Shown in pieces: positions 27,067 through 64,000 of a stretch of DNA of 64,000 nucleotides; the stretch's first letter is position 1, and each line of letters starts with the position of its first letter. Both the position numbers and the translations under genes were made by a program. The DNA lies in the NCBI RefSeq assembly GCF_035582795.1, contig NW_027445651.1, positions 248,001-312,000 on the forward strand. Reading direction: 5' to 3'. Source of the DNA: Mycteria americana (taxonomy: Eukaryota > Chordata > Aves > Ciconiiformes > Ciconiidae). The notes beneath the pieces are model-generated. The model saw only the letters and a list, made by a program, of their open reading frames with translations. It did no database searches and was not told the DNA's origin.

Positions 27067-27067
27067 C

Positions 27068-27370: not shown

Positions 27371-27440
27371 TTAGCAGGGTTGACATCTGTTGCCACAGTA
27401 GAGGCTGGTAATGCAGGAGAGGTCACAGCACCCAGAGGTG
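27371..27440 (-). pseudogene. beta-keratin B, 3' fragment only
   Basis: The last 22 codons and stop of a keratin A-like gene: [22 protein letters not shown] then TAA. The 3' UTR (27068-27370) is present and closely matches keratin A. The rest of the coding region, the intron and the promoter are replaced at 27440 by the first unit of the tandem array. The fragment has no start codon or promoter of its own. Confidence 0.9.
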
Positions 27441-27615
27441 GCCCTTCTGCGCAAGGCTGAGCTCTGGGGAAAGGGCCCTCAGTGCTCCCTTGGCGGCCCA
27501 ATTTCACTTAAGCACCCAGAGATCTGCAGGCGAAGATGCTGGGGTTAGCGGCCTGAGGGGAAAGGAGGTGGTGGTGAGCGTGAAAAGAGCTAAAATCCCC
27601 AAAGAAAAAAAGAAA

Positions 27616-28360
27616 TGTTGTAAGTAGCTTGGTTGCTCAACTCTAAGGGATCTTTCCTTTTAGCTCCCCTTTCGCAGATAATTTAGCCTAGCCTGTGAGT
27701 ATTGTTGAATTGCTAATGAGCACCCTTTATTCGAAGGACATGTCTATGGTCTTTCCCCCTCCTAACAACAATCATTAGAGTAAGAATGCCTTGCCTGTGT
27801 TAAATCCTTGGTTAGCTTAGATAGTCGCAATGTAGACAGATAAGAAGGAATTAATTCTTCAAGCCCTGTGTCCCTGGAAAGGGCTGATAAGGAGAAGCTA
27901 TACAAGAACCAACTGGTTTTGGATATGCAAGGAAGGTATGAGCAAGACAAAGATGGACTGAGCATGCGTAGAGACAAAGTTCGGTCAGCGGTCAGAGTGA
28001 TGAAGACTACCGACTTCCTCCAACGACCACCAGAGGATCCCTAACGACCACCTAAGGACTTAAGTACGCATGCGCCAGAGACATTTGCATATATTAACGA
28101 GTTCCAAGAAATCGCACGTTTATGTAAATTAATCTTATGAATATGTATGATTTTGCAACACATAATCTCTGCGATCTTGCTTGTTTGTCGGAGCACCTAT
28201 GGTGGAGCAATCCCCAGTGCTGCCCAGCACTGTAATAAAGGATGCCTGCTTAATAGTAACTCTGTTGCTATTGAGTTTTATTTCGGGAACACTCTGAAAC
28301 TGCGATTCGCCTGCTGGGAGACTCGGACTTTAAAGGGTAGTCTCCGCGAATTTTGCTTCA
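27616..28360 (+). mobile_element. solo LTR in unit 1
   Basis: About 745 bp starting TGTTGTAAGTAGCTTGGTTG and ending TTTTGCTTCA. AATAAA lies at about 28233, and U5-like sequence with 'TTTTATTTCGGGAACACTCT' follows. The flanks AGAAA and AGAGA suggest a 5-bp target duplication. No internal region is present. The family is not identified with certainty (avian ERV). It points opposite to the keratin gene, about 0.9 kb beyond its poly(A) site. Confidence 0.75.
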
Positions 28361-29252
28361 AGAGAGCTTCTGCCATGGAACTCTTCTTCCCCTGCACCCC
28401 AGGACGAGATTGCACTTGCCATGAGCTGCAAAGAGAGAGCGTGGGCTGTTGTGATCGGTGCGCTCTCTACAGTACCACGGGAGGAACTGTAAGATGCTCA
28501 CCTGTGTCACCTTGCAGGCCCATGCGAATAACCTTTTTGTCCTGGAGCTGCTCGGTGTGATGGGAGTTGGGGATGTGCAGCCTGCGAGACACCTCAGCCC
28601 TGCCAATCTGTGTAACCAACCACTGGGCTGCACAGGGCGCTGTATGGATGTGGCGGAAGAACAGGGGACTTGCCCTACCCTAGCTACCCTTGCCCTTGGT
28701 GGCATGCCGTGCCCCTTCCTTCTGGGGACGGGTGGGAAGGTGAGGAGGAGGCTCTGGGCTGTAGACAAGGTGATTTCTCCTACCATCCCCTCCTTCCATC
28801 CCCACGGCCATCTTCTGTCTGAGCCTCCTCCCCCAGCGCAGCTCCATCCAGAGCAAGAGGAACTGCCTTGAGTGCTTGTGGGGCTGCTGACCTCCCAGGA
28901 CCTCCTGCAGCACTGGGGTCCTCCCATGAAGACAGCACAAGTTGGGATCACCATCTGTGGGGCATGCTCTGAGGCCAAGGGGAATATTTCTGGGCAGACA
29001 TGCAGCAAGGGAAGGGCTGATGGTCACTGGCTGTGGAGTAGCCAGAGACGTCGTCCTCAGCTCCAAGGAACAGGGACCGAAGGAGGCCCACAGGCAGTGT
29101 GTCCTGCCCTCCCAGTCCTCTCGGAATGAGAAAGGGTCCACTTGCTCACCCATTTGTTCCCTCCCAGCTTATCTCCTTTCTCCCTGGACAGCTTTAGAGA
29201 GCATGCAGAGAGGAAAGGACCACACAGAGCCAGAGGCTGGGATGCAGCAGAG
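28361..29252. other. keratin 3' flank in unit 1
   Basis: Non-coding. A 216-codon minus-strand frame (28358-29008) crosses the LTR edge and is unlikely to be a gene. The part 28690-29150 aligns with the 3' flank of keratins A and B and with 1196-1500. Confidence 0.7.
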
Positions 29253-29258
29253 TTTAAT
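29253..29258 (-). terminator. unit 1 keratin poly(A) signal ATTAAA
   Basis: ATTAAA on the coding strand about 425 nt after the stop codon, a usual distance for feather keratin genes as I recall. The same hexamer lies at 35704, 42155, 48606, 55057 and 61508. Confidence 0.75.
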
Positions 29259-29991: not shown

Positions 29992-30012
29992 GTCTCTGGG
30001 CCAGGGGTGCAC

Positions 30013-30302
30013 CTGGGAGAGGGGGCAGGGGAAGCAAAGCACAACGGATACATGAGGAGCAGCACTGCGCCCAACCACAGTGGAGCCAAGGCACCTCCTG
30101 GCCCAGCTTATGCTGCCCAGCTCAAAGCCCAGGAGCCACCTCAGCTAAGTCCCAGCCTCTCTCTGTGGAAGGCTTTCTCTCCCCTTCCCTCTCCCATGAG
30201 AAGCAGGTCCCAGCCCTGGGCTAGGACAGCCCATATCAGCTGAGACATACATCAGGGAAAGACCTGACCTTGAAGGAGGAGGAGAAGAGGCTTCACACTC
30301 AC
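30013..30302 (-). other. 5'-leader intron, unit 1 keratin
   Basis: 290 bp from donor GTGAGT (after GGGAATCAG) to acceptor CCCCCTCTCCCAG, 21 nt before the ATG. This leader intron is a hallmark of avian beta-keratin genes. The copies lie at 36464, 42915, 49366, 55817 and 62268. Confidence 0.88.
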
Positions 30303-30450
30303 CTGATTCCCAAGGAGAAGGAGGCGAGAGAAGTGGATGAGAGAGCAGAGAGCTGGGCTGCCTTTTATAGTAGCCCTGCACTGCCTCAGGCCCAGAGGCA
30401 CCCTTTGTGGAAGTAATAATTTTCTGACAAGCTCACGTCAAATGCAAACC
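30303..30450 (-). promoter_or_regulatory. unit 1 keratin promoter and exon 1
   Basis: CTATAAAAGG with the TATAAAA core at 30363-30369. Transcription should start near 30338, giving a non-coding exon 1 of about 36 nt, close to the 37 nt I recall for chicken feather keratin. Upstream on the coding strand are TGACGTGA (30433-30440, CRE-like) and, on the plus strand, ATGCAAAC (octamer-like, 30441-30448). Factor binding is not shown by sequence alone. Confidence 0.8.
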
Positions 30451-32479: not shown

Positions 32480-33247
32480 GAACTACAAAAAAAGTGTGAG
32501 AAACAATCCTGCAAGCACCGAGGCCAGAGAGGAGGGAGGAGGAGGAGGAGGTGCTCCAGGCAATGGTGCAGAGATTCCCGGGCAGCCCGTGGGAGAGACC
32601 ATGGTGGAGCGGATATCCACACTGCAGCCCATGGAGGATCCCACGCCGGACCGGGTGGCTATGCCCTGCAGGAACTGCGGCCTGTGCAGAGCCCATGCTG
32701 AAGCAGGCTCCTGGCAGGAACTGTGGCCCCTGGAGGACCCACGCTGGAGCAGACTTGTCTGGAAGGACTGCAGCCCGTGGACAGGACCCACGCTGGAGCT
32801 GGTCTTGAAAGACTGCAGCCTATGGGAAGGGCTCACGCTGGAGCGGAGAAAAATGTGAGGAGGAAACAGCGGCAGAAAGGAACTGTTGCGTACTGACGGC
32901 AACCCCCCATTCCACATCCCACTGCGCTGCTTGGGGGTGGAGGAAACAGAAGAGCCGTGAATGAAGGAGGGAAGTTGAGCCTGTGAAAAAGAGGGGGGGA
33001 TGGAGTGAAGGTGTTTTAGGGGTTTTTTGGCCGTTTCTCACCATCCTGCTCTATTTTTAATTGGCACTATGTTAAATGAGTCTTCCCCAAGCCAAGTCTG
33101 TTTTGCCTGTGACAGTAATTGGTAAGTAATCCCCCTGCCTTTATCTCGACCCACAACCTTTTTCACCCGACTTTCTCCTTCTGTCCTGTTGAGGAGGGAG
33201 AGGGAGAGAGCGAGCAGCTGGGTGGGTGCCTGGAAGCCAGCCGAGGT
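32480..33247 (+). mobile_element. ERV LTR 3' fragment, unit 1
   Basis: Same family as 24950-26089, opposite orientation: the GGACCCACGCTGGAGC repeat array (32580-32850), 'CTCTATTTTTAATTGGCACT', 'CTTCCCCAAGCCAAGTCTGT', 'TTTATCTCGACCCACAACC' and GGTGCCTGGAAGCCAGCCGAGG. The first part of the LTR is absent. It was captured before the unit was amplified. Confidence 0.8.
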
Positions 33248-33890
33248 CTTTTTAGTTTTGCACCAATTATGGTAATTAGAAGTGCCATGACTGCTTGTCA
33301 TTCACGTGCTTTTTTTTCCTGCTTGTACCTGTGGCACCAGGAGCAGTCTCTTTCTCCCACTGTTGTTCCCCCCAGAGGACGGTGGGCAATGATGTCAATT
33401 GGCCTTTGTGCTTGTGTACCTGGGAACTAGTGGCAGGTTTACAGCCACGGGCAGAGCACAGCCCACCAACCCTCCTGCCATAGCCTCAGACGAACAACGA
33501 GACCCCAAAGGCCATGTGGGAGGAGAGCTGTGAGTGGGAGCTCCTGTGCTGATGACCTGCTTTCTTCAGCTCTTTCTGACTCTGCTAGCAAAGGTCTGTC
33601 ATCAGAACTGATGACAGAGAAGAAACCCCTGCTCCCTTGGTTGTCTCAGACCCCCTTCACCTGCATTTCTTTCCCCAACCATCCATCCCTCATTGCCTCT
33701 CTTTTCCAGCCCATTCCCTCTCAATGTTTCACAGGTAGGTCAGTGCAGTAGATCTCGTCTGTCTTGGTAGCCCCAAATTTCTGAGGTTCAAGCACCAAAG
33801 GCTGTTCCCCATGAGCTGTAGGCTTCAGGAGAAGAGGGAGCTAGGAGGAGGGGCACAGCACAGTTCTCCTCGCTTGGCATCCTGGCAGGA
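33248..33890. other. unit end block
   Basis: Non-coding. The stretch 33460-33595 matches 17215-17350. The stretch 33790-33890 is, in reverse complement, related to 8060-8160, and related directly to 21285-21345. So this end was assembled from pieces also found in the older modules. Confidence 0.6.
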
Positions 33891-34066
33891 GGCCCTTCTG
33901 CGCAAGGCTGAGCTCTGGGGAAAGGGCCCTCAGTGCTCCCTTGGCGGCCCGATTTCACTTAAGCACCCAGAGATCTGCAGGCGAAGATGCTGGGGTTAGC
34001 GGCCTGAGGGGAAAGGAGGTGGTGGTGAGCGTGAAAAGAGCTAAAATCCCCAAAGAAAAAAAGAAA

Positions 34067-34811
34067 TGTTGTAAGTAGCTTGGTTGCTCAACTCTAAGGG
34101 ATCTTTCCTTTTAGCTCCCCTTTCGCAGATAATTTAGCCTAGCCTGTGAGTATTGTTGAATTGCTAATGAGCACCCTTTATTCGAAGGACATGTCTATGG
34201 TCTTTCCCCCTCCTAACAACAATCATTAGAGTAAGAATGCCTTGCCTGTGTTAAATCCTTGGTTAGCTTAGATAGTCGCAATGTAGACAGATAAGAAGGA
34301 ATTAATTCTTCAAGCCCTGTGTCCCTGGAAAGGGCTGATAAGGAGAAGCTATACAAGAACCAACTGGTTTTGGATATGCAAGGAAGGTATGAGCAAGACA
34401 AAGATGGACTGAGCATGCGTAGAGACAAAGTTCGGTCAGCGGTCAGAGTGATGAAGACTACCGACTTCCTCCAACGACCACCAGAGGATCCCTAACGACC
34501 ACCTAAGGACTTAAGTACGCATGCGCCAGAGACATTTGCATATATTAACGAGTTCCAAGAAATCGCACGTTTATGTAAATTAATCTTATGAATATGTATG
34601 ATTTTGCAACACATAATCTCTGCGATCTTGCTTGTTTGTCGGAGCACCTATGGTGGAGCAATCCCCAGTGCTGCCCAGCACTGTAATAAAGGATGCCTGC
34701 TTAATAGTAACTCTGTTGCTATTGAGTTTTATTTCGGGAACACTCTGAAACTGCGATTCGCCTGCTGGGAGACTCGGACTTTAAAGGGTAGTCTCCGCGA
34801 ATTTTGCTTCA
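34067..34811 (+). mobile_element. solo LTR in unit 2
   Basis: Copy of the 27616-28360 LTR, same ends and same flanking bases, so it was multiplied with the unit and did not insert separately. Confidence 0.75.
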
Positions 34812-36133
34812 AGAGAGCTTCTGCCATGGAACTCTTCTTCCCCTGCACCCCAGGACGAGATTGCACTTGCCATGAGCTGCAAAGAGAGAGCGTGGGCTGT
34901 TGTGATCGGTGCGCTCTCTACAGTACCACGGGAGGAACTGTAAGATGCTCACCTGTGTCACCTTGCAGGCCCATGCGAATAACCTTTTTGTCCTGGAGCT
35001 GCTCGGTGTGATGGGAGTTGGGGATGTGCAGCCTGCGAGACACCTCAGCCCTGCCAATCTGTGTAACCAACCGCTGGGCTGCACAGGGCGCTGTATGGAT
35101 GTGGCGGAAGAACAGGGGACTTGCCCTACCCTAGCTACCCTTGCCCTTGGTGGCATGCCGTGCCCCTTCCTTCTGGGGACGGGTGGGAAGGTGAGGAGGA
35201 GGCTCTGGGCTGTAGACAAGGTGATTTCTCCTACCATCCCCTCCTTCCATCCCCACGGCCATCTTCTGTCTGAGCCTCCTCCCCCAGCGCAGCTCCATCC
35301 AGAGCAAGAGGAACTGCCTTGAGTGCTTGTGGGGCTGCTGACCTCCCAGGACCTCCTGCAGCACTGGGGTCCTCCCATGAAGACAGCACAAGTTGGGATC
35401 ACCATCTGTGGGGCATGCTCTGAGGCCAAGGGGAATATTTCTGGGCAGAGATGCAGCAAGGGAAGGGCTGATGGTCACTGGCTGTGGAGTAGCCAGAGAC
35501 GTCGTCCTCAGCTCCAAGGAACAGGGACCGAAGGAGGCCCACAGGCAGTGTGTCCTGCCCTCCCAGTCCTCTCGGAATGAGAAAGGGTCCACTTGCTCAC
35601 CCATTTGTTCCCTCCCAGCTTATCTCCTTTCTCCCTGGACAGCTTTAGAGAGCATGCAGAGAGGAAAGGACCACACAGAGCCAGAGGCTGGGATGCAGCA
35701 GAGTTTAATGAGTCCAAAGAGGGCAACAAGATGTCTGTGAGGAGAGGCCACAGTGAAAGGATCACCATGGGCAGCCAAGAGTCAGTGCCCCATGATCAAG
35801 GGAGAGTTCCCACAGGGCACCTGTCTGGCTGCCCGACAGAGGGAGAGGGGCAGGCAGGTCCCCCCTAAGCTGGCTTTGGTGGGCCTCATGGCCCAGGGAG
35901 CAGAACACAACCAAGGACAAGGAGGGAAAGGAGAGAGGGGAGGAAGGGAACGAGAGGCATCGGCCATGTTTTCAGAGAGCCCAGGCTGGCCCCTTCCAAA
36001 GGGCTGACACCCTTTGCAGGAGGAGCGGGGCGTGCTCAGACCCTCTCAAAGCAGTAGCCACGATCTCCGTCATTCAGTCTGGCATCATCTTCGGGGCTCC
36101 CGGGGTTCCTTGTCTGGGCTGTCACCGGTGGCT

Positions 36134-36442
36134 TTAGCAAGGGGGGCACCTTCTGCTGCCACAGTAGCGGCTGGTGATACAGGAGAGGTCACAGCACCCA
36201 GAGGTGATGGGGACTCCGTCACAGCTGAGGATGCTGCCAACAGCAGCGGAGGTGGAGGAGCCCACAACGGTGTTCTGCGGGAAGGAGCTGAGGATGGGGC
36301 CGGGCAGGGTCACCACCACGGGGGAGGGCTGGATGACAACAGTGGAGTTCTGGCACTGCCTGACACAGGGCTCATTGCAGCTGTTGGCCAGCGGGGTCGG
36401 GCCGCAGGGCTGGCAGGGCTGGCACTGGTCGTAGCAGGACAT
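36134..36442 (-). CDS. Cys-rich feather-type beta-keratin, unit 2
   Basis: Predicted protein identical to the unit 1 keratin (102 residues, 14 Cys), with no nucleotide difference seen in the coding region. TATA core at 36814-36820, leader intron 36464-36753, ATTAAA at 35704-35709. Nothing suggests it is silent. Transcripts from this copy could not be told from those of units 1, 3, 4 and 5 by the coding sequence. Confidence 0.97.
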
Positions 36443-36813
36443 GTCTCTGGGCCAGGGGTGCACCTGGGAGAGGGGGCAGGGGAAGCAAAGCACAACGGAT
36501 ACATGAGGAGCAGCACTGCGCCCAACCACAGTGGAGCCAAGGCACCTCCTGGCCCAGCTTATGCTGCCCAGCTCAAAGCCCAGGAGCCACCTCAGCTAAG
36601 TCCCAGCCTCTCTCTGTGGAAGGCTTTCTCTCCCCTTCCCTCTCCCATGAGAAGCAGGTCCCAGCCCTGGGCTAGGACAGCCCATATCAGCTGAGACATA
36701 CATCAGGGAAAGACCTGACCTTGAAGGAGGAGGAGAAGAGGCTTCACACTCACCTGATTCCCAAGGAGAAGGAGGCGAGAGAAGTGGATGAGAGAGCAGA
36801 GAGCTGGGCTGCC

Positions 36814-36820
36814 TTTTATA
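36814..36820 (-). promoter_or_regulatory. TATA box, unit 2 keratin
   Basis: TATAAAA on the coding strand, same context as unit 1. Confidence 0.8.
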
Positions 36821-38435
36821 GTAGCCCTGCACTGCCTCAGGCCCAGAGGCACCCTTTGTGGAAGTAATAATTTTCTGACAAGCTCACGTCAAATGCAAAC
36901 CATCCCAGCTAATGGCATGGGCTGTGTTCTGGTTTCCTGCACCGCTGCCTTTTCATTTCCTGGCTTAAGCCACGTGCTTCCCCATATGAAGGCTTCTGTA
37001 AGTGCCGGGATGAGAGGCCCGAGGATTTCCGGGGCAGAAACACATCAGCGCAGGCAGAAGACTCAGCTCAAGTGCTGGTGGCATCCCGTGCAGGCAGGTG
37101 ATGTGCACCTGGGTCATTCCTGTGGGCTTGTCTGTGGCAAAGTTGTTCGGGAAACGGGCGCCGCTCTCGTGCTTCTCGTCCGGATGCCCAAGGACTCCCA
37201 CGTGAGAGGTCATGTCACACGTGGGCCTCAGCATCTCCTCAGCAGAGTCCACAGTTGCTGACGTTTTCCTGGCTTTATGTGAGCGTACGGATTTTTGCAT
37301 GGTTCCACGCAGGCGCGCATGAGCACACACGTGTCAGTCTGTACCTGTGTGACCCTCATCATGAGGGCATGTGCAGGTCATAGCAGGAATGGTAGTTGCA
37401 AAGGAATCTACAGCTGAATGGTGGTGCCTTCGACCTGGCAGGTGCAGAGAGGTGCCCAGAGAACTGAAATGCAGTCTCTGCCTCCTGTGCCCTCCATTTC
37501 TTGCTTTATGTAGAGGGAGAGGCGCCCATAAATCCTGCCCACCGCATGCAGGCCGTCATCCCCGAACGTATCCCCTTACGATGCAGTGTTGCTGGTGACT
37601 GGGGGCTCCTCACGTCCATGCCAATGCCACCGCTCAGCCTGGTGCTGAGTGAGGCAGGGGCTGAGACCTCGCACCAAATGGGTATTGAACTGAAGGGACC
37701 AGGGTCCAGGCGCTGCTCTGCTGTGAGATGTAGGACTGACTGTCCGGGTGGCGCAGGGAGAGTCAAACAGCTGAGGACTCCTTTGCTGTTCAAGCACCAG
37801 GACTTCCGTGTCCCCCATAGAAAACTGAACCTGAGTGCCCAGCAACTGTGTCTAGGAAGGCAGGGATATGTGATTGAGGGCCAAAGCGCACAAACTCTGC
37901 TGCTGTTTCATGAGGGAGGTCAGGCAAGCTCCCTCTTTGCGACAGAGGCTGTAGGTATTTTGTAAGGGCCCTAAGCGCATCCTCCATCCTAGTCTGCCTT
38001 GTCTCCGATCCAGCTTACAGGTAGTGCAACTGAGGGCTACCCTCTTCCCTTTGTTGACCTTGCTGAGGTCATTCTGCTGGGAGGCTTCAGCCAGGGCTGA
38101 CTCCCCTTCCCGTGGGAGCAGCTTTCAAGCTTCAGTTCTAGTGCTTGGCCCCAACCTGAGTTACAGCTCCAGCTGTGACACATCTGTGCCTGTACCTGGT
38201 CATGGACCCCACTCATCTCGCTTTGGACCCTGACATGCGGGTGACTTCCCAGCTTGAGCTCAGACCTTCCTTATCTCTGCGAACACACCTGGTGATCGCC
38301 GGACATTGTTGAACCCTGATTACTGTCCTGAGACCTCATCCTGACCTTGACTCACTGACTCGGTGACTTGCCTTTCCAGCTTGACCCCAGACATATGTAA
38401 GGCAAGAGCCTGAGCCAGCACACGAGCAGGACAAC

Positions 38436-38541
38436 CTAAAAGTCTGTGCACACTTGCAGACCTATGATCTTATCGGGGTGTTGGAGAAAAGCTGGGATAG
38501 CTCTCATGTCTGGAGTGTGCAGTGGCTCTGCAAAACAGAAG
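38436..38541 (+). mobile_element. CR1 endonuclease fragment, unit 2
   Basis: Identical to the unit 1 fragment. Confidence 0.65.
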
Positions 38542-38930
38542 GCAGAATTGCCACCCTGCACTCCGTAAGAGCAGATTTTTGTCCCCTCAGGGACCCGCCA
38601 GGCGCAGTCCTTTGGGAAAGTGCCCTGGGGGCTCAAAGAGGCCCGTGGAGAATGCGAAATACAGCAGGTAAGATCTGATGATAATAAAAATAAGGAAATC
38701 ACCATAACTAGCTCCATCCGCTCCACTTGATAAAGGCATTAGAAAGATCTACCAAGGACATGAGATGGGTGCATTTTTGGAGCATTTCTTTCCACATCTG
38801 AAAGCACGACCAAGAATACCATTTTTCTTGAGGTTATTCAAAGTTACCTCCACCCCATGAGCAACGCTGGTGGTGCCTCCGTGAAACCATATCCGAGAAA
38901 GGGCAAAACACTGCACAGGAGATGAGGAAT

Positions 38931-39698
38931 GAACTACAAAAAAAGTGTGAGAAACAATCCTGCAAGCACCGAGGCCAGAGAGGAGGGAGGAGGAGGAGGA
39001 GGTGCTCCAGGCAATGGTGCAGAGATTCCCGGGCAGCCCGTGGGAGAGACCATGGTGGAGCGGATATCCACACTGCAGCCCATGGAGGATCCCACGCCGG
39101 ACCGGGTGGCTATGCCCTGCAGGAACTGCGGCCTGTGCAGAGCCCATGCTGAAGCAGGCTCCTGGCAGGAACTGTGGCCCCTGGAGGACCCACGCTGGAG
39201 CAGACTTGTCTGGAAGGACTGCAGCCCGTGGACAGGACCCACGCTGGAGCTGGTCTTGAAAGACTGCAGCCTATGGGAAGGGCTCACGCTGGAGCGGAGA
39301 AAAATGTGAGGAGGAAACAGCGGCAGAAAGGAACTGTTGCGTACTGACGGCAACCCCCCATTCCACATCCCACTGCGCTGCTTGGGGGTGGAGGAAACAG
39401 AAGAGCCGTGAATGAAGGAGGGAAGTTGAGCCTGTGAAAAAGAGGGGGGGATGGAGTGAAGGTGTTTTAGGGGTTTTTTGGCCGTTTCTCACCATCCTGC
39501 TCTATTTTTAATTGGCACTATGTTAAATGAGTCTTCCCCAAGCCAAGTCTGTTTTGCCTGTGACAGTAATTGGTAAGTAATCCCCCTGCCTTTATCTCGA
39601 CCCACAACCTTTTTCACCCGACTTTCTCCTTCTGTCCTGTTGAGGAGGGAGAGGGAGAGAGCGAGCAGCTGGGTGGGTGCCTGGAAGCCAGCCGAGGT
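38931..39698 (+). mobile_element. ERV LTR 3' fragment, unit 2
   Basis: Copy of the unit 1 fragment at 32480. Confidence 0.8.
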
Positions 39699-40517
39699 CT
39701 TTTTAGTTTTGCACCAATTATGGTAATTAGAAGTGCCATGACTGCTTGTCATTCACGTGCTTTTTTTTCCTGCTTGTACCTGTGGCACCAGGAGCAGTCT
39801 CTTTCTCCCACTGTTGTTCCCCCCAGAGGACGGTGGGCAATGATGTCAATTGGCCTTTGTGCTTGTGTACCTGGGAACTAGTGGCAGGTTTACAGCCACG
39901 GGCAGAGCACAGCCCACCAACCCTCCTGCCATAGCCTCAGACGAACAACGAGACCCCAAAGGCCATGTGGGAGGAGAGCTGTGAGTGGGAGCTCCTGTGC
40001 TGATGACCTGCTTTCTTCAGCTCTTTCTGACTCTGCTAGCAAAGGTCTGTCATCAGAACTGATGACAGAGAAGAAACCCCTGCTCCCTTGGTTGTCTCAG
40101 ACCCCCTTCACCTGCATTTCTTTCCCCAACCATCCATCCCTCATTGCCTCTCTTTTCCAGCCCATTCCCTCTCAATGTTTCACAGGTAGGTCAGTGCAGT
40201 AGATCTCGTCTGTCTTGGTAGCCCCAAATTTCTGAGGTTCAAGCACCAAAGGCTGTTCCCCATGAGCTGTAGGCTTCAGGAGAAGAGGGAGCTAGGAGGA
40301 GGGGCACAGCACAGTTCTCCTCGCTTGGCATCCTGGCAGGAGGCCCTTCTGCGCAAGGCTGAGCTCTGGGGAAAGGGCCCTCAGTGCTCCCTTGGCGGCC
40401 CGATTTCACTTAAGCACCCAGAGATCTGCAGGCGAAGATGCTGGGGTTAGCGGCCTGAGGGGAAAGGAGGTGGTGGTGAGCGTGAAAAGAGCTAAAATCC
40501 CCAAAGAAAAAAAGAAA

Positions 40518-43264: not shown

Positions 43265-43271
43265 TTTTATA
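43265..43271 (-). promoter_or_regulatory. TATA box, unit 3 keratin
   Basis: TATAAAA on the coding strand. Confidence 0.8.
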
Positions 43272-49715: not shown

Positions 49716-49722
49716 TTTTATA
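49716..49722 (-). promoter_or_regulatory. TATA box, unit 4 keratin
   Basis: TATAAAA on the coding strand. Confidence 0.8.
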
Positions 49723-51337: not shown

Positions 51338-51443
51338 CTAAAAGTCTGTGCACACTTGCAGACCTATGATCTTATCGGGGTGTTGGAGAAAAGCTGGGAT
51401 AGCTCTCATGTCTGGAGTGTGCAGTGGCTCTGCAAAACAGAAG
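51338..51443 (+). mobile_element. CR1 endonuclease fragment, unit 4
   Basis: Identical to the unit 1 fragment. Confidence 0.65.
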
Positions 51444-51832
51444 GCAGAATTGCCACCCTGCACTCCGTAAGAGCAGATTTTTGTCCCCTCAGGGACCCGC
51501 CAGGCGCAGTCCTTTGGGAAAGTGCCCTGGGGGCTCAAAGAGGCCCGTGGAGAATGCGAAATACAGCAGGTAAGATCTGATGATAATAAAAATAAGGAAA
51601 TCACCATAACTAGCTCCATCCGCTCCACTTGATAAAGGCATTAGAAAGATCTACCAAGGACATGAGATGGGTGCATTTTTGGAGCATTTCTTTCCACATC
51701 TGAAAGCACGACCAAGAATACCATTTTTCTTGAGGTTATTCAAAGTTACCTCCACCCCATGAGCAACGCTGGTGGTGCCTCCGTGAAACCATATCCGAGA
51801 AAGGGCAAAACACTGCACAGGAGATGAGGAAT

Positions 51833-52600
51833 GAACTACAAAAAAAGTGTGAGAAACAATCCTGCAAGCACCGAGGCCAGAGAGGAGGGAGGAGGAGGAG
51901 GAGGTGCTCCAGGCAATGGTGCAGAGATTCCCGGGCAGCCCGTGGGAGAGACCATGGTGGAGCGGATATCCACACTGCAGCCCATGGAGGATCCCACGCC
52001 GGACCGGGTGGCTATGCCCTGCAGGAACTGCGGCCTGTGCAGAGCCCATGCTGAAGCAGGCTCCTGGCAGGAACTGTGGCCCCTGGAGGACCCACGCTGG
52101 AGCAGACTTGTCTGGAAGGACTGCAGCCCGTGGACAGGACCCACGCTGGAGCTGGTCTTGAAAGACTGCAGCCTATGGGAAGGGCTCACGCTGGAGCGGA
52201 GAAAAATGTGAGGAGGAAACAGCGGCAGAAAGGAACTGTTGCGTACTGACGGCAACCCCCCATTCCACATCCCACTGCGCTGCTTGGGGGTGGAGGAAAC
52301 AGAAGAGCCGTGAATGAAGGAGGGAAGTTGAGCCTGTGAAAAAGAGGGGGGGATGGAGTGAAGGTGTTTTAGGGGTTTTTTGGCCGTTTCTCACCATCCT
52401 GCTCTATTTTTAATTGGCACTATGTTAAATGAGTCTTCCCCAAGCCAAGTCTGTTTTGCCTGTGACAGTAATTGGTAAGTAATCCCCCTGCCTTTATCTC
52501 GACCCACAACCTTTTTCACCCGACTTTCTCCTTCTGTCCTGTTGAGGAGGGAGAGGGAGAGAGCGAGCAGCTGGGTGGGTGCCTGGAAGCCAGCCGAGGT
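51833..52600 (+). mobile_element. ERV LTR 3' fragment, unit 4
   Basis: Copy of the unit 1 fragment at 32480. Confidence 0.8.
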
Positions 52601-53419
52601 CTTTTTAGTTTTGCACCAATTATGGTAATTAGAAGTGCCATGACTGCTTGTCATTCACGTGCTTTTTTTTCCTGCTTGTACCTGTGGCACCAGGAGCAGT
52701 CTCTTTCTCCCACTGTTGTTCCCCCCAGAGGACGGTGGGCAATGATGTCAATTGGCCTTTGTGCTTGTGTACCTGGGAACTAGTGGCAGGTTTACAGCCA
52801 CGGGCAGAGCACAGCCCACCAACCCTCCTGCCATAGCCTCAGACGAACAACGAGACCCCAAAGGCCATGTGGGAGGAGAGCTGTGAGTGGGAGCTCCTGT
52901 GCTGATGACCTGCTTTCTTCAGCTCTTTCTGACTCTGCTAGCAAAGGTCTGTCATCAGAACTGATGACAGAGAAGAAACCCCTGCTCCCTTGGTTGTCTC
53001 AGACCCCCTTCACCTGCATTTCTTTCCCCAACCATCCATCCCTCATTGCCTCTCTTTTCCAGCCCATTCCCTCTCAATGTTTCACAGGTAGGTCAGTGCA
53101 GTAGATCTCGTCTGTCTTGGTAGCCCCAAATTTCTGAGGTTCAAGCACCAAAGGCTGTTCCCCATGAGCTGTAGGCTTCAGGAGAAGAGGGAGCTAGGAG
53201 GAGGGGCACAGCACAGTTCTCCTCGCTTGGCATCCTGGCAGGAGGCCCTTCTGCGCAAGGCTGAGCTCTGGGGAAAGGGCCCTCAGTGCTCCCTTGGCGG
53301 CCCGATTTCACTTAAGCACCCAGAGATCTGCAGGCGAAGATGCTGGGGTTAGCGGCCTGAGGGGAAAGGAGGTGGTGGTGAGCGTGAAAAGAGCTAAAAT
53401 CCCCAAAGAAAAAAAGAAA

Positions 53420-54164
53420 TGTTGTAAGTAGCTTGGTTGCTCAACTCTAAGGGATCTTTCCTTTTAGCTCCCCTTTCGCAGATAATTTAGCCTAGCCTGT
53501 GAGTATTGTTGAATTGCTAATGAGCACCCTTTATTCGAAGGACATGTCTATGGTCTTTCCCCCTCCTAACAACAATCATTAGAGTAAGAATGCCTTGCCT
53601 GTGTTAAATCCTTGGTTAGCTTAGATAGTCGCAATGTAGACAGATAAGAAGGAATTAATTCTTCAAGCCCTGTGTCCCTGGAAAGGGCTGATAAGGAGAA
53701 GCTATACAAGAACCAACTGGTTTTGGATATGCAAGGAAGGTATGAGCAAGACAAAGATGGACTGAGCATGCGTAGAGACAAAGTTCGGTCAGCGGTCAGA
53801 GTGATGAAGACTACCGACTTCCTCCAACGACCACCAGAGGATCCCTAACGACCACCTAAGGACTTAAGTACGCATGCGCCAGAGACATTTGCATATATTA
53901 ACGAGTTCCAAGAAATCGCACGTTTATGTAAATTAATCTTATGAATATGTATGATTTTGCAACACATAATCTCTGCGATCTTGCTTGTTTGTCGGAGCAC
54001 CTATGGTGGAGCAATCCCCAGTGCTGCCCAGCACTGTAATAAAGGATGCCTGCTTAATAGTAACTCTGTTGCTATTGAGTTTTATTTCGGGAACACTCTG
54101 AAACTGCGATTCGCCTGCTGGGAGACTCGGACTTTAAAGGGTAGTCTCCGCGAATTTTGCTTCA
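53420..54164 (+). mobile_element. solo LTR in unit 5
   Basis: Copy of the 27616-28360 LTR in the same place in the unit. Confidence 0.75.
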
Positions 54165-55486
54165 AGAGAGCTTCTGCCATGGAACTCTTCTTCCCCTGCA
54201 CCCCAGGACGAGATTGCACTTGCCATGAGCTGCAAAGAGAGAGCGTGGGCTGTTGTGATCGGTGCGCTCTCTACAGTACCACGGGAGGAACTGTAAGATG
54301 CTCACCTGTGTCACCTTGCAGGCCCATGCGAATAACCTTTTTGTCCTGGAGCTGCTCGGTGTGATGGGAGTTGGGGATGTGCAGCCTGCGAGACACCTCA
54401 GCCCTGCCAATCTGTGTAACCAACCGCTGGGCTGCACAGGGCGCTGTATGGATGTGGCGGAAGAACAGGGGACTTGCCCTACCCTAGCTACCCTTGCCCT
54501 TGGTGGCATGCCGTGCCCCTTCCTTCTGGGGACGGGTGGGAAGGTGAGGAGGAGGCTCTGGGCTGTAGACAAGGTGATTTCTCCTACCGTCCCCTCCTTC
54601 CATCCCCACGGCCATCTTCTGTCTGAGCCTCCTCCCCCAGCGCAGCTCCATCCAGAGCAAGAGGAACTGCCTTGAGTGCTTGTGGGGCTGCTGACCTCCC
54701 AGGACCTCCTGCAGCACTGGGGTCCTCCCATGAAGACAGCACAAGTTGGGATCACCATCTGTGGGGCATGCTCTGAGGCCAAGGGGAATATTTCTGGGCA
54801 GAGATGCAGCAAGGGAAGGGCTGATGGTCACTGGCTGTGGAGTAGCCAGAGACGTCGTCCTCAGCTCCAAGGAACAGGGACCGAAGGAGGCCCACAGGCA
54901 GTGTGTCCTGCCCTCCCAGTCCTCTCGGAATGAGAAAGGGTCCACTTGCTCACCCATTTGTTCCCTCCCAGCTTATCTCCTTTCTCCCTGGACAGCTTTA
55001 GAGAGCATGCAGAGAGGAAAGGACCACACAGAGCCAGAGGCTGGGATGCAGCAGAGTTTAATGAGTCCAAAGAGGGCAACAAGATGTCTGTGAGGAGAGG
55101 CCACAGTGAAAGGATCACCATGGGCAGCCAAGAGTCAGTGCCCCATGATCAAGGGAGAGTTCCCACAGGGCACCTGTCTGGCTGCCCGACAGAGGGAGAG
55201 GGGCAGGCAGGTCCCCCCTAAGCTGGCTTTGGTGGGCCTCATGGCCCAGGGAGCAGAACACAACCAAGGACAAGGAGGGAAAGGAGAGAGGGGAGGAAGG
55301 GAACGAGAGGCATCGGCCATGTTTTCAGAGAGCCCAGGCTGGCCCCTTCCAAAGGGCTGACACCCTTTGCAGGAGGAGCGGGGCGTGCTCAGACCCTCTC
55401 AAAGCAGTAGCCACGATCTCCGTCATTCAGTCTGGCATCATCTTCGGGGCTCCCGGGGTTCCTTGTCTGGGCTGTCACCGGTGGCT

Positions 55487-55795
55487 TTAGCAAGGGGGGC
55501 ACCTTCTGCTGCCACAGTAGCGGCTGGTGATACAGGAGAGGTCACAGCACCCAGAGGTGATGGGGACTCCGTCACAGCTGAGGATGCTGCCAACAGCAGC
55601 GGAGGTGGAGGAGCCCACAACGGTGTTCTGCGGGAAGGAGCTGAGGATGGGGCCGGGCAGGGTCACCACCACGGGGGAGGGCTGGATGACAACAGTGGAG
55701 TTCTGGCACTGCCTGACACAGGGCTCATTGCAGCTGTTGGCCAGCGGGGTCGGGCCGCAGGGCTGGCAGGGCTGGCACTGGTCGTAGCAGGACAT
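55487..55795 (-). CDS. Cys-rich feather-type beta-keratin, unit 5
   Basis: Same protein as units 1-4, although this unit has the most private differences outside the gene. TATA core at 56167-56173, leader intron 55817-56106, ATTAAA at 55057-55062. Confidence 0.97.
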
Positions 55796-56166
55796 GTCTC
55801 TGGGCCAGGGGTGCACCTGGGAGAGGGGGCAGGGGAAGCAAAGCACAACGGATACATGAGGAGCAGCACTGCGCCCAACCACAGTGGAGCCAAGGCACCT
55901 CCTGGCCCAGCTTATGCTGCCCAGCTCAAAGCCCAGGAGCCACCTCAGCTAAGTCCCAGCCTCTCTCTGTGGAAGGCTTTCTCTCCCCTTCCCTCTCCCA
56001 TGAGAAGCAGGTCCCAGCCCTGGGCTAGGACAGCCCATATCAGCTGAGACATACATCAGGGAAAGACCTGACCTTGAAGGAGGAGGAGAAGAGGCTTCAC
56101 ACTCACCTGATTCCCAAGGAGAAGGAGGCGAGAGAAGTGGATGAGAGAGCAGAGAGCTGGGCTGCC

Positions 56167-56173
56167 TTTTATA
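56167..56173 (-). promoter_or_regulatory. TATA box, unit 5 keratin
   Basis: TATAAAA on the coding strand. Confidence 0.8.
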
Positions 56174-57788
56174 GTAGCCCTGCACTGCCTCAGGCCCAGA
56201 GGCACCCTTTGTGGAAGTAATAATTTTCTGACAAGCTCACGTCAAATGCAAACCATCCCAGCTAATGGCATGGGCTGTGTTCTGGTTTCCTGCACTGCTG
56301 CCTTTTCATTTCCTGGCTTAAGCCACGTGCTTCCCCATATGAAGGCTTCTGTAAGTGCCGGGATGAGAGGCCCGAGGATTTCCGGGGCAGAAACACATCA
56401 GCGCAGGCAGAAGACTCAGCTCAAGTGCTGGTGGCATCCCGTGCAGGCAGGTGATGTGCACCTGGGTCATTCCTGTGGGCTTGTCTGTGGCAAAGTTGTT
56501 CGGGAAACGGGCGCCGCTCTCGTGCTTCTCGTCCGGATGCCCAAGGACTCCCACGTGAGAGGTCATGTCACACGTGGGCCTCAGCATCTCCTCAGCAGAG
56601 TCCACAGTTGCTGACGTTTTCCTGGCTTTATGTGAGCGTACGGATTTTTGCATGGTTCCACGCAGGCGCGCATGAGCACACACGTGTCAGTCTGTACCTG
56701 TGTGACCCTCATCATGAGGGCATGTGCAGGTCATAGCAGGAATGGTAGTTGCAAAGGAATCTACAGCTGAATGGTGGTGCCTTCGACCTGGCAGGTGCAG
56801 AGAGGTGCCCAGAGAACTGAAATGCAGTCTCTGCCTCCTGTGCCCTCCATTTCTTGCTTTATGTAGAGGGAGAGGCGCCCATAAATCCTGCCCACCGCAT
56901 GCAGGCCGTCATCCCCGAACGTATCCCCTTATGATGCAGTGTTGCTGGTGACTGGGGGCTCCTCACGTCCATGCCAATGCCACCGCTCAGCCTGGTGCTG
57001 AGTGAGGCAGGGGCTGAGACCTCGCACCAAATGGGTATTGAACTGAAGGGACCAGGGTCCAGGCGCTGCTCTGCTGTGAGATGTAGGACTGACTGTCCGG
57101 GTGGCGCAGGGAGAGTCAAACAGCTGAGGACTCCTTTGCTGTTCAAGCACCAGGACTTCCGTGTCCCCCATAGAAAACTGAACCTGAGTGCCCAGCAACT
57201 GTGTCTAGGAAGGCAGGGATATGTGATTGAGGGCCAAAGCGCACAAACTCTGCTGCTGTTTCATGAGGGAGGTCAGGCAAGCTCCCTCTTTGCGACAGAG
57301 GCTGTAGGTATTTTGTAAGGGCCCTAAGCGCATCCTCCATCCTAGTCTGCCTTGTCTCCGATCCAGCTTACAGGTAGTGCAACTGAGGGCTACCCTCTTC
57401 CCTTTGTTGGCCTTGCTGAGGTCATTCTGCTGGGAGGCTTCAGCCAGGGCTGACTCCCCTTCCCGTGGGAGCAGCTTTCAAGCTTCAGTTCTAGTGCTTG
57501 GCCCCAACCTGAGTTACAGCTCCAGCTGTGACACATCTGTGCCTGTACCTGGTCATGGACCCCACTCATCTCGCTTTGGACCCTGACATGCGGGTGACTT
57601 CCCAGCTTGAGCTCAGACCTTCCTTATCTCTGCGAACACACCTGGTGATCGCCGGACATTGTTGAACCCTGATTACTGTCCTGAGACCTCATCCTGACCT
57701 TGACTCACTGACTCGGTGACTTGCCTTTCCAGCTTGACCCCAGACATATGTAAGGCAAGAGCCTGAGCCAGCACACGAGCAGGACAAC

Positions 57789-57894
57789 CTAAAAGTCTGT
57801 GCACACTTGCAGACCTATGATCTTATCGGGGTGTTGGAGAAAAGCTGGGATAGCTCTCATGTCTGGAGTGTGCAGTGGCTCTGCAAAACAGAAG
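57789..57894 (+). mobile_element. CR1 endonuclease fragment, unit 5
   Basis: Identical to the unit 1 fragment. Confidence 0.65.
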
Positions 57895-58283
57895 GCAGAA
57901 TTGCCACCCTGCACTCCGTAAGAGCAGATTTTTGTCCCCTCAGGGACCCGCCAGGCGCAGTCCTTTGGGAAAGTGCCCTGGGGGCTCAAAGAGGCCCGTG
58001 GAGAATGCGAAATACAGCAGGTAAGATCTGATGATAATAAAAATAAGGAAATCACCATAACTAGCTCCATCCGCTCCACTTGATAAAGGCATTAGAAAGA
58101 TCTACCAAGGACATGAGATGGGTGCATTTTTGGAGCATTTCTTTCCACATCTGAAAGCACGACCAAGAATACCATTTTTCTTGAGGTTATTCAAAGTTAC
58201 CTCCACCCCATGAGCAACGCTGGTGGTGCCTCCGTGAAACCATATCCGAGAAAGGGCAAAACACTGCACAGGAGATGAGGAAT

Positions 58284-59051
58284 GAACTACAAAAAAAGTG
58301 TGAGAAACAATCCTGCAAGCACCGAGGCCAGAGAGGAGGGAGGAGGAGGAGGAGGTGCTCCAGGCAATGGTGCAGAGATTCCCGGGCAGCCCGTGGGAGA
58401 GACCATGGTGGAGCGGATATCCACACTGCAGCCCATGGAGGATCCCACGCCGGACCGGGTGGCTATGCCCTGCAGGAACTGCGGCCTGTGCAGAGCCCAT
58501 GCTGAAGCAGGCTCCTGGCAGGAACTGTGGCCCCTGGAGGACCCACGCTGGAGCAGACTTGTCTGGAAGGACTGCAGCCCGTGGACAGGACCCACGCTGG
58601 AGCTGGTCTTGAAAGACTGCAGCCTATGGGAAGGGCTCACGCTGGAGCGGAGAAAAATGTGAGGAGGAAACAGCGGCAGAAAGGAACTGTTGCGTACTGA
58701 CGGCAACCCCCCATTCCACATCCCACTGCGCTGCTTGGGGGTGGAGGAAACAGAAGAGCCGTGAATGAAGGAGGGAAGTTGAGCCTGTGAAAAAGAGGGG
58801 GGGATAGAGTGAAGGTGTTTTAGGGGTTTTTTGGCCGTTTCTCACCATCCTGCTCTATTTTTAATTGGCACTATGTTAAATGAGTCTTCCCCAAGCCAAG
58901 TCTGTTTTGCCTGTGACAGTAATTGGTAAGTAATCCCCCTGCCTTTATCTCGACCCACAACCTTTTTCACCCGACTTTCTCCTTCTGTCCTGTTGAGGAG
59001 GGAGAGGGAGAGAGCGAGCAGCTGGGTGGGTGCCTGGAAGCCAGCCGAGGT
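58284..59051 (+). mobile_element. ERV LTR 3' fragment, unit 5
   Basis: Copy of the unit 1 fragment at 32480, one base different near 58806. Confidence 0.8.
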
Positions 59052-59870
59052 CTTTTTAGTTTTGCACCAATTATGGTAATTAGAAGTGCCATGACTGCTT
59101 GTCATTCACGTGCTTTTTTTTCCTGCTTGTACCTGTGGCACCAGGAGCAGTCTCTTTCTCCCACTGTTGTTCCCCCCAGAGGACGGTGGGCAATGATGTC
59201 AATTGGCCTTTGTGCTTGTGTACCTGGGAACTAGTGGCAGGTTTACAGCCACGGGCAGAGCACAGCCCACCAACCCTCCTGCCATAGCCTCAGACGAACA
59301 ACGAGACCCCAAAGGCCATGTGGGAGGAGAGCTGTGAGTGGGAGCTCCTGTGCTGATGACCTGCTTTCTTCAGCTCTTTCTGACTCTGCTAGCAAAGGTC
59401 TGTCATCAGAACTGATGACAGAGAAGAAACCCCTGCTCCCTTGGTTGTCTCAGACCCCCTTCACCTGCATTTCTTTCCCCAACCATCCATCCCTCATTGC
59501 CTCTCTTTTCCAGCCCATTCCCTCTCAATGTTTCACAGGTAGGTCAGTGCAGTAGATCTCGTCTGTCTTGGTAGCCCCAAATTTCTGAGGTTCAAGCACC
59601 AAAGGCTGTTCCCCATGAGCTGTAGGCTTCAGGAGAAGAGGGAGCTAGGAGGAGGGGCACAGCACAGTTCTCCTCGCTTGGCATCCTGGCAGGAGGCCCT
59701 TCTGCGCAAGGCTGAGCTCTGGGGAAAGGGCCCTCAGTGCTCCCTTGGCGGCCCGATTTCACTTAAGCACCCAGAGATCTGCAGGCGAAGATGCTGGGGT
59801 TAGCGGCCTGAGGGGAAAGGAGGTGGTGGTGAGCGTGAAAAGAGCTAAAATCCCCAAAGAAAAAAAGAAA

Positions 59871-60615
59871 TGTTGTAAGTAGCTTGGTTGCTCAACTCTA
59901 AGGGATCTTTCCTTTTAGCTCCCCTTTCGCAGATAATTTAGCCTAGCCTGTGAGTATTGTTGAATTGCTAATGAGCACCCTTTATTCGAAGGACATGTCT
60001 ATGGTCTTTCCCCCTCCTAACAACAATCATTAGAGTAAGAATGCCTTGCCTGTGTTAAATCCTTGGTTAGCTTAGATAGTCGCAATGTAGACAGATAAGA
60101 AGGAATTAATTCTTCAAGCCCTGTGTCCCTGGAAAGGGCTGATAAGGAGAAGCTATACAAGAACCAACTGGTTTTGGATATGCAAGGAAGGTATGAGCAA
60201 GACAAAGATGGACTGAGCATGCGTAGAGACAAAGTTCGGTCAGCGGTCAGAGTGATGAAGACTACCGACTTCCTCCAACGACCACCAGAGGATCCCTAAC
60301 GACCACCTAAGGACTTAAGTACGCATGCGCCAGAGACATTTGCATATATTAACGAGTTCCAAGAAATCGCACGTTTATGTAAATTAATCTTATGAATATG
60401 TATGATTTTGCAACACATAATCTCTGCGATCTTGCTTGTTTGTCGGAGCACCTATGGTGGAGCAATCCCCAGTGCTGCCCAGCACTGTAATAAAGGATGC
60501 CTGCTTAATAGTAACTCTGTTGCTATTGAGTTTTATTTCGGGAACACTCTGAAACTGCGATTCGCCTGCTGGGAGACTCGGACTTTAAAGGGTAGTCTCC
60601 GCGAATTTTGCTTCA
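59871..60615 (+). mobile_element. solo LTR in unit 6
   Basis: Copy of the 27616-28360 LTR in the same place in the unit. Confidence 0.75.
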
Positions 60616-61937
60616 AGAGAGCTTCTGCCATGGAACTCTTCTTCCCCTGCACCCCAGGATGAGATTGCACTTGCCATGAGCTGCAAAGAGAGAGCGTGGG
60701 CTGTTGTGATCGGTGCGCTCTCTACAGTACCACGGGAGGAACTGTAAGATGCTCACCTGTGTCACCTTGCAGGCCCATGCGAATAACCTTTTTGTCCTGG
60801 AGCTGCTCGGTGTGATGGGAGTTGGGGATGTGCAGCCTGCGAGACACCTCAGCCCTGCCAATCTGTGTAACAAACCGCTGGGCTGCACAGGGCGCTGTAT
60901 GGATGTGGCGGAAGAACAGGGGACTTGCCCTACCCTAGCTACCCTTGCCCTTGGTGGCATGCCGTGCCCCTTCCTTCTGGGGACGGGTGGGAAGGTGAGG
61001 AGGAGGCTCTGGGCTGTAGACAAGGTGATTTCTCCTACCATCCCCTCCTTCCATCCCCACGGCCATCTTCTGTCTGAGCCTCCTCCCCCAGCGCAGCTCC
61101 ATCCAGAGCAAGAGGAACTGCCTTGAGTGCTTGTGGGGCTGCTGACCTCCCAGGACCTCCTGCAGCACTGGGGTCCTCCCATGAAGACAGCACAAGTTGG
61201 GATCACCATCTGTGGGGCATGCTCTGAGGCCAAGGGGAATATTTCTGGGCAGAGATGCAGCAAGGGAAGGGCTGATGGTCACTGGCTGTGGAGTAGCCAG
61301 AGACGTCGTCCTCAGCTCCAAGGAACAGGGACCGAAGGAGGCCCACAGGCAGTGTGTCCTGCCCTCCCAGTCCTCTCAGAATGAGAAAGGGTCCACTTGC
61401 TCACCCATTTGTTCCCTCCCAGCTTATCTCCTTTCTCCCTGGACAGCTTTAGAGAGCATGCAGAGAGGAAAGGACCACACAGAGCCAGAGGCTGGGATGC
61501 AGCAGAGTTTAATGAGTCCAAAGAGGGCAACAAGATGTCTGTGAGGAGAGGCCACAGTGAAAGGATCACCATGGGCAGCCAAGAGTCAGTGCCCCATGAT
61601 CAAGGGAGAGTTCCCACAGGGCACCTGTCTGGCTGCCCGACAGAGGGAGAGGGGCAGGCAGGTCCCCCCTAAGCTGGCTTTGGTGGGCCTCATGGCCCAG
61701 GGAGCAGAACACAACCAAGGAAAAGGAGGGAAAGGAGAGAGGGGAGGAAGGGAACGAGAGGCATCGGCCATGTTTTCAGAGAGCCCAGGCTGGCCCCTTC
61801 CAAAGGGCTGACACCCTTTGCAGGAGGAGCGGGGCGTGCTCAGACCCTCTCAAAGCAGTAGCCACGATCTCCGTCATTCAGTCTGGCATCATCTTCGGGG
61901 CTCCTGGGGTTCCTTGTCTGGGCTGTCACCGGTGGCT

Positions 61938-62246
61938 TTAGCAAGGGGGGCACCTTCTGCTGCCACAGTAGCGGCTGGTGATACAGGAGAGGTCACAGCA
62001 CCCAGAGGTGATGGGGACTCCGTTACAGCTGAGGATGCTGCCAACAGCAGCAGAGGTGGAGGAGCCCACAACGGTGTTCTGCGGGAAGGAGCTGAGGATG
62101 GGGCCAGGAAGAATCACCACCACGGGGGAGGGCTCGATGACAACAGTGGAAGGCTGGCACTGCCTGACACAGGGCTCATTGCAGCTGTTGGCCAGCGGGG
62201 TCGGGCCGCAGGGCTGGCAGGGCTGGCACTGGTCGTAGCAGGACAT
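61938..62246 (-). CDS. Cys-rich beta-keratin variant, unit 6
   Basis: Also 102 residues and 14 Cys, but with four substitutions against units 1-5: Asn32 to Pro, Gln38 to Glu, Thr45 to Ile and Asp75 to Asn. The region thus reads [20 protein letters not shown]. Several silent changes accompany them within 62024-62153. Outside that tract the coding region matches the other units. Ile45 and Asn75, and the bases around them, agree with keratin A; Pro32 and Glu38 agree with neither, so another keratin paralogue is the likely source. TATA core at 62618-62624, leader intron 62268-62557 and ATTAAA at 61508-61513 are intact. It should be functional and is the only array copy with a distinguishable product. 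Confidence 0.96.
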
Positions 62247-62617
62247 GTCTCTGGGCCAGGGGTGCACCTGGGAGAGGGGGCAGGGGAAGCAAAGCACAAC
62301 GGATACATGAGGAGCAGCACTGCGCCCAACCACAGTGGAGCCAAGGCACCTCCTGGCCCAGCTTATGCTGCCCAGCTCAAAGCCCAGGAGCCACCTCAGC
62401 TAAGTCCCAGCCTCTCTCTGTGGAAGGCTTTCTCTCCCCTTCCCTCTCCCATGAGAAGCAGGTCCCAGCCCTGGGCTAGGACAGCCCATATCAGCTGAGA
62501 CATACATCAGGGAAAGACCTGACCTTGAAGGAGGAGGAGAAGAGGCTTCACACTCACCTGATTCCCAAGGAGAAGGAGGCGAGAGAAGTGGATGAGAGAG
62601 CAGAGAGCTGGGCTGCC

Positions 62618-62624
62618 TTTTATA
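62618..62624 (-). promoter_or_regulatory. TATA box, unit 6 keratin
   Basis: TATAAAA on the coding strand. The T at 62747 upstream is shared with units 3 and 5. Confidence 0.8.
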
Positions 62625-64000
62625 GTAGCCCTGCACTGCCTCAGGCCCAGAGGCACCCTTTGTGGAAGTAATAATTTTCTGACAAGCTCACGTCAAATGC
62701 AAACCATCCCAGCTAATGGCATGGGCTGTGTTCTGGTTTCCTGCACTGCTGCCTTTTCATTTCCTGGCTTAAGCCACGTGCTTCCCCATATGAAGGCTTC
62801 TGTAAGTGCCGGGATGAGAGGCCCGAGGATTTCCGGGGCAGAAACACATCAGCGCAGGCAGAAGACTCAGCTCAAGTGCTGGTGGCATCCCGTGCAGGCA
62901 GGTGATGTGCACCTGGGTCATTCCTGTGGGCTTGTCTGTGGCAAAGTTGTTCAGGAAACGGGCGCCGCTCTCGTGCTTCTCGTCCGGATGCCCAAGGACT
63001 CCCACGTGAGAGGTCATGTCACACGTGGGCCTCAGCATCTCCTCAGCAGAGTCCACAGTTGCTGACGTTTTCCTGGCTTAATGTGAGCGTACGGATTTTT
63101 GCATGGTTCCACGCAGGCGCGCATGAGCACACACGTGTCAGTCTGTACCTGTGTGACCCTCATCATGAGGGCATGTGCAGGTCATAGCAGGAATGGTAGT
63201 TGCAAAGGAATCTACAGCTGAATGGTGGTGCCTTCGACCTGGCAGGTGCAGAGAGGTGCCCAGAGAACTGAAATGCAGTCTCTGCCTCCTGTGCCCTCCA
63301 TTTCTTGCTTTATGTAGAGGGAGAGGCGCCCATAAATCCTGCCCACCGCATGCAGGCCGTCATCCCCGAACGTATCCCCTTACGATGCAGTGTTGCTGGT
63401 GACTGGGGGCTCCTCACGTCCATGCCAATGCCACCGCTCAGCCTGGTGCTGAGTGAGGCAGGGGCTGAGACCTCGCACCAAATGGGTATTGAACTGAAGG
63501 GACCAGGGTCCAGGCGCTGCTCTGCTGTGAGATGTAGGACTGACTGTCCGGGTGGCGCAGGGAGAGTCAAACAGCTGAGGACTCCTTTGCTGTTCAAGCA
63601 CCAGGACTTCCGTGTCCCCCATAGAAAACTGAACCTGAGTGCCCAGCAACTGTGTCTAGGAAGGCAGGGATACGTGATTGAGGGCCAAAGCGCACAAACT
63701 CTGCTGCTGTTTCATGAGGGAGGTCAGGCAAGCTCCCTCTTTGCGACAGAGGCTGTAGGTATTTTGTAAGGGCCCTAAGCGCATCCTCCATCCTAGTCTG
63801 CCTTGTCTCCGATCCAGCTTACAGGTAGTGCAACTGAGGGCTACCCTCTTCCCTTTGTTGACCTTGCTGAGGTCATTCTGCTGGGAGGCTTCAGCCAGGG
63901 CTGACTCCCCTTCCCGTGGGAGCAGCTTTCAAGCTTCAGTTCTAGTGCTTGGCCCCAACCTGAGTTACAGCTCCAGCTGTGACACATCTGTGCCTGTACC

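Follow-up and report, generated by a model that had tools for sequence, protein, structure and literature searches.

We found that the genome of the stork Mycteria americana carries a young, nearly uniform tandem array of feather beta-keratin genes, which fills the right part of the window analyzed here (64,000 nucleotides, positions 248,001 to 312,000 of contig NW_027445651.1; all coordinates below are those of this window). The array runs head to tail and consists of five complete units (27440-59694), each exactly 6451 bp long, followed by 4306 bp of a sixth (59695-64000). A preliminary description had called it six-copy; six copies are indeed visible, and six is a minimum, as the window end at 64000 cuts the right side of the array and shows no array edge there. 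Hence, the array has at least six units.

The period was evident when the window was compared with itself at lags of 500 to 39999: 6451 bp and its multiples gave the five highest self-matches, with 64% of positions identical at lag 6451 and 27% at the best lag outside its multiples. From 27501 onward, 60 of 60 blocks of 500 bp matched at 98-100%. The left edge of the array lies at 27440: position 27439 is mismatched, and beyond it the match drops to near-random apart from 27436-27438. Across units we found 29 variable columns, all substitutions and none an insertion or deletion (indel), and no length variation in any of the nine homopolymers of 6-8 bases in each unit. Hence, the exact 6451-bp step noted at the outset holds for all five full units, homopolymers included.

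Two longer or shorter periods were considered and rejected. The unit is about twice the 3-kb gene spacing on chicken chromosome 25, as a dimer with one dead gene would be, and blastn of the unit against itself found no such internal repeat. A higher-order dimer period would fit the closeness of units 2 and 4, yet pairs 1-3 and 3-5, at 8 and 9 differences, belong to the least similar ones.

A feather-keratin gene in every unit

An intact open reading frame (ORF) of 102 codons lies on the minus strand of all six copies. The protein from unit 1 matches the Pfam family Keratin (PF02422) with E 3.8e-39 over residues 3-82, covering profile positions 1-80 of 80. Searching for relatives, we found 1517 proteins at E up to 0.001. 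Among the best 120 of these, the entries with a name and an organism are bird keratins. Most of the 120 are feather keratins of the Cos types or KRF, and the remainder are "Keratin", hypothetical or nameless; tern, crane and sea eagle are among the sources of the best matches over the whole protein. The best named relatives among the matches listed are KRF4, Cos1 and Cos2 feather keratins. Units 1-5 encode one identical protein, to which the closest relatives among the matches listed are 97-98% identical. Relatives with solved structures were limited to two weak matches, one to a neurotoxin (E 0.22) and one to a lactate dehydrogenase (E 0.6), which we take as chance. On these protein matches, the array gene is an avian feather beta-keratin (corneous beta-protein).

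Feather-keratin genes characteristically have one intron in the 5' untranslated region (UTR), an intronless coding sequence (CDS) and a TATA box. We found the TATA box, the motif of a 290-bp intron and an unbroken CDS in all six copies, as recognized by motif rather than from a transcript. Since TATA box, splice sites, polyadenylation signal and ORF are intact throughout, all six genes are probably expressed as feather keratin in the cells that form feathers.

Divergence among units and the origin of the array

The near-identity of units 1-5 spans all 6451 bp: pairs differ by 1-9 substitutions, with a mean of 5.6 per 6451 bp (0.087%), and a single site separates units 2 and 4, as had been suspected. 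Unit 6 differs from each of the others by 18-21 within its 4306 bp. Hence, the earlier statement that pairs differ by a handful of bases fits units 1-5 and fails for unit 6, in which 11 of the changes sit in a single 249-bp patch that had been overlooked.

The variants of units 1-5 comprise 10 transitions and 3 transversions, 8 of the 13 are in CpG context, and there are no indels; this spectrum looks like germline mutation and not like sequencing error. The absence of length variation, emphasized in the preliminary description, is real and not remarkable. Indel-to-substitution ratios commonly range from 0.1 to 0.03, at which the approximately 20 substitutions predict 0.6-2 indels and the probability of seeing none is 0.14-0.55. 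Hence, the constant unit length adds little beyond the low divergence.

Birds accumulate substitutions at 1.5-4e-9 per site and year. At these rates, the units would have separated roughly 110,000-290,000 years ago, or they have been exchanging sequence frequently. That the whole unit, and not just its gene, was recently amplified or is frequently exchanged had been proposed beforehand and agrees with the 0.087% mean difference over the full 6451 bp, whereas the older keratin duplicates to the left of the array are 82-92% identical in their longer pieces.

We consider a recent local amplification, homogenization by unequal exchange and a later conversion patch in unit 6 to be the likely history of the locus. 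A 6451-bp segment with one complete gene, a long terminal repeat (LTR)-like element and intergenic DNA would have been tandemly duplicated beside older, diverged keratin duplicates. The unit would then have been multiplied and homogenized through unequal crossing-over between misaligned units, and later gene conversion would have overwritten at most approximately 250 bp of unit 6 with sequence from another feather-keratin gene, one outside the array. Most variants are private to single units, and one four-gamete conflict (unit sites 2028 and 3053) has the pattern expected from exchange. Two observations weigh against exchange as the engine: this sole conflict includes a CpG transition and could be recurrent mutation, and adjacency brings no clear gain in similarity between units (40 of 120 unit orders give an equally good fit). 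Within this window, exchange and a single amplification burst cannot be separated.

An assembly artefact appears unlikely to us; in such a case the repeat would have been copied too often or too rarely, or the two haplotypes joined one after the other, and each haplotype would in truth carry another number of units. Reads shorter than approximately two units cannot place units 2 and 4, given their single difference, and passages of the literature describe how a second allele assembled next to the first can pass for a keratin duplication (PMC2894828) and how tandem arrays that exceed the read length collapse in assembly (PMC7757076). The private substitutions of units 1-5, with their germline-like spectrum, and the coherent private patch of unit 6 argue the other way, and joining two haplotypes would no more than double the unit count. 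The variant spectrum speaks against sequencing error but cannot verify copy number. The preliminary description also read the array as a sign of selection for keratin dosage, which would have driven and now maintains it. All six genes look intact, and large feather-keratin arrays are reported, in the passages concerned, for chicken and zebra finch (PMC2894828, PMC4202321). However, we found no detectable excess conservation of the gene: none of the 13 variable sites in units 1-5 falls in the 309-bp CDS, which is expected by chance with P = 0.53, unit 6 carries differences that change the protein, and a neutral young duplication yields the same picture. Hence, the claim of dosage selection is left without support, and we regard this explanation as doubtful.

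The patch in unit 6

Unit 6 has 16 private changes, and 11 of them fall within 249 bp over the gene, 10 in its CDS. In 20,000 random placements such clustering never arose, and the largest cluster had 8. Six of the 10 CDS changes are the base found in the older keratin paralog at 13.4 kb, a number that 0 of 20,000 random draws reached; the other four differ from this paralog and produce N32 to P and Q38 to E. In total, the unit 6 protein has four residue changes (N32P, Q38E, T45I and D75N).

We compared these residues with 154 relatives, which are all retrieved proteins that were aligned (the best matches listed out of 1517, 1387 and 1314 found). The combination P-E-I-N occurs in 2 of the 154, one a Buteo buteo entry and one a Harpia harpyja / Accipiter gentilis entry (both accipitrid), and the N-Q-T-D of units 1-5 occurs in 24. 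N75 by itself is present in six and not in raptors alone (two Numenius entries and one Nycticryphes), and I45 and N75 occur together in three (Buteo, Harpia/Accipiter and Gymnogyps).

A gene conversion tract is recognized as a short clustered block that resembles another family member and lies between near-normal flanks. The patch has this form, with flanks slightly more diverged than those of the other units: counted against the majority sequence of the other units, unit 6 has 7 differing sites beyond the patch, and units 1-5 have 1-5 over the same stretch. Most simply, the patch is read as an ectopic gene conversion that followed the formation of the array, with a feather-keratin gene outside the window as the donor. 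Several points weigh against this reading. Unit 6 is the most diverged unit outside the patch as well (7-10 pairwise differences versus 1-8, and 5 private changes versus 0-3); the 13.4-kb paralog matches 6 of the 10 CDS changes and hence is insufficient as the donor; both accipitrid relatives differ from unit 6 elsewhere (e.g. S for C at residue 74); and the 154 relatives include matches to the unit 6 protein itself, which was used as a query.

The divergence outside the patch would also suit an old, less homogenized edge unit that was never converted, as unit 6 may lie near the right edge of the array and its E38 is the commoner state among the relatives (95 of 154). Such a unit should have diverged throughout, and the differences of unit 6 are instead concentrated, with 11 in 249 bp and 7 in the other 4057 bp. 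Hence, we hold an unconverted edge unit to be quite improbable and retain gene conversion as the reading of the patch.

A comparable case comes from two feather genes of the zebra finch, between which GENECONV found a recombined fragment of 146 nt, read as homogenization in the relevant passage of PMC2894828. The tract lengths are similar; the unit 6 tract differs in lying within a young array, where both its edges are visible against approximately 99.9% identity.

Older neighbors and known keratin arrays

The features of the window are collected in the table.

Table. Features of the keratin array and its left flank (coordinates within the window).
Feature	Position	Strand	Basis or remark
Array unit 1, 6451 bp	27440..33890	gene on -	left-edge scan and unit alignment
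Array unit 2	33891..40341	-	unit alignment
Array unit 3	40342..46792	-	unit alignment
Array unit 4	46793..53243	-	same sequence as majority of units 1-5
Array unit 5	53244..59694	-	unit alignment
Array unit 6, first 4306 bp	59695..64000	-	cut by window end
Feather beta-keratin CDS, unit 1, 102 amino acids	29683..29991	-	Pfam PF02422 and named relatives
Keratin CDS, unit 2, same protein	36134..36442	-	sequence comparison
Keratin CDS, unit 3, same protein	42585..42893	-	sequence comparison
Keratin CDS, unit 4, same protein	49036..49344	-	sequence comparison
Keratin CDS, unit 5, same protein	55487..55795	-	sequence comparison
Keratin CDS, unit 6, N32P, Q38E, T45I, D75N	61938..62246	-	sequence comparison
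TATA box, unit 1	30364..30369	-	identical in 6/6 copies
5' UTR intron, GT..AG, 290 bp, unit 1	30013..30302	-	by motif; splice sites identical in 6/6 copies
ATTAAA polyadenylation signal, unit 1	29253..29258	-	identical in 6/6 copies
Gene-conversion-like patch, unit 6	61905..62153 (unit positions 2211-2459)	-	11/16 private changes
LTR-like element, 745 bp, TG..CA, near-duplicated 5-bp flanks AGAAA/AGAGA	27616..28360	+	anatomy only
Dispersed repeat, unit 1	32494..33248	+	related stretches 24961-25841, 8908-9115, 3020-3128
Older paralogous feather keratin gene, ORF of 107 amino acids	13367..13690	-	Pfam Keratin; TATA box missing
3' end of older truncated keratin gene, adjoining array start	27374..27439	-	blastn

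The array lies beside an older keratin neighborhood. We found an older duplication (9638-13436 and 23953-27440) that is 82-92% identical in its longer pieces and 72% in one 105-bp piece. It includes both older keratin copies, and its second copy ends in a keratin gene severed within the CDS at 27439. Since the array starts where this older gene is severed, the array edge lies on a breakpoint inside it. The first of the older copies, the 13.4-kb paralog, has a 12-bp gap in its promoter (near 14161) at the place of the array gene's TATA box; because of this gap the paralog may be silent, perhaps a gene that keeps an open frame but is no longer transcribed.

Each unit also contains other elements. 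The preliminary description spoke of LTRs and a fragment of a long interspersed nuclear element (LINE); we find one LTR-like element per unit, as judged by its anatomy, and take the supposed LINE fragment as a dispersed repeat that occurs at three other sites in the window. Among the 43 stop-to-stop ORFs of at least 130 amino acids that overlap 1-33900, 9 of the 11 long unit 1 ORFs were tested and gave no Pfam match, the other two being 28680-29168 and the frame of the keratin gene itself, the CDS of which was tested separately; 10 ORFs tested in the left flank gave none either. Rfam returned zero matches to RNA genes at gathering score. The left flank further holds a diverged pair of approximately 1 kb, 63% identical (6616-7575 and 18688-19669), whose tested ORFs (6113-6778, 6813-7235 and 18729-19361) are without a Pfam match, and a tandem repeat at 3807-3949 with a 39-bp unit, 3.7 copies and 74% matches.

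Tandem arrays of feather beta-keratin genes were reportedly described by Presland et al. in 1989, as citing papers have it. For chicken, passages of later work place 15 feather-keratin genes on one strand of chromosome 25 at an equal spacing of approximately 3 kb, whereas chromosome 27 has 61, with 50 on one strand and 11 on the other (PMC2894828); for a later chicken assembly, 47 genes over approximately 578 kb are given for chromosome 27 (PMC4202321). The stork array resembles these in having the same gene family in tandem and differs in its 6451-bp period and in its whole-unit identity of approximately 99.9%, the LTR-like element included, a measure for which the cited passages give no value. 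As far as the cited passages go, birds differ widely in the copy number of their feather-keratin arrays, and unequal crossing-over is a mechanism suggested for the expansion (PMC4264316). The HINT1W amplicon of the chicken W is likewise a tandem repeat whose units span several kb and hold one complete gene; its 5648-bp unit is present in 52 tandem copies and is called satellite DNA (PMC9974502, passage concerned); that system involves another gene, the W chromosome and far more copies than are seen in the stork array. Among the titles and abstracts listed in a search of the openly licensed literature, none dealt with a 6.4-kb keratin unit or with this array. The locus is a young example of the long-known feather-keratin tandem arrays, some of which are equally spaced, and by itself it leaves the known picture of them unchanged.

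Tandem arrays are hard to assemble. Resolved unit by unit, with its left edge in view, approximately 99.9% identity among its units and, in one unit, a sharply bounded patch that resembles another gene, the stork array offers good conditions for measuring how unequal exchange and gene conversion proceed. The bounded conversion-like tract is a detail of some interest in a family where conversion is described, in the passage cited, as perhaps very rare (PMC2894828). We also raise, as a speculative idea that we think unlikely, that the array may be both a copy machine and a mixing site, in which unequal exchange would keep the units identical and repeated short ectopic conversion from other feather-keratin genes would write new protein variants into single units. 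If this were true, feather-keratin diversity would arise through conversion into young arrays and not mainly through the slow divergence of duplicates.
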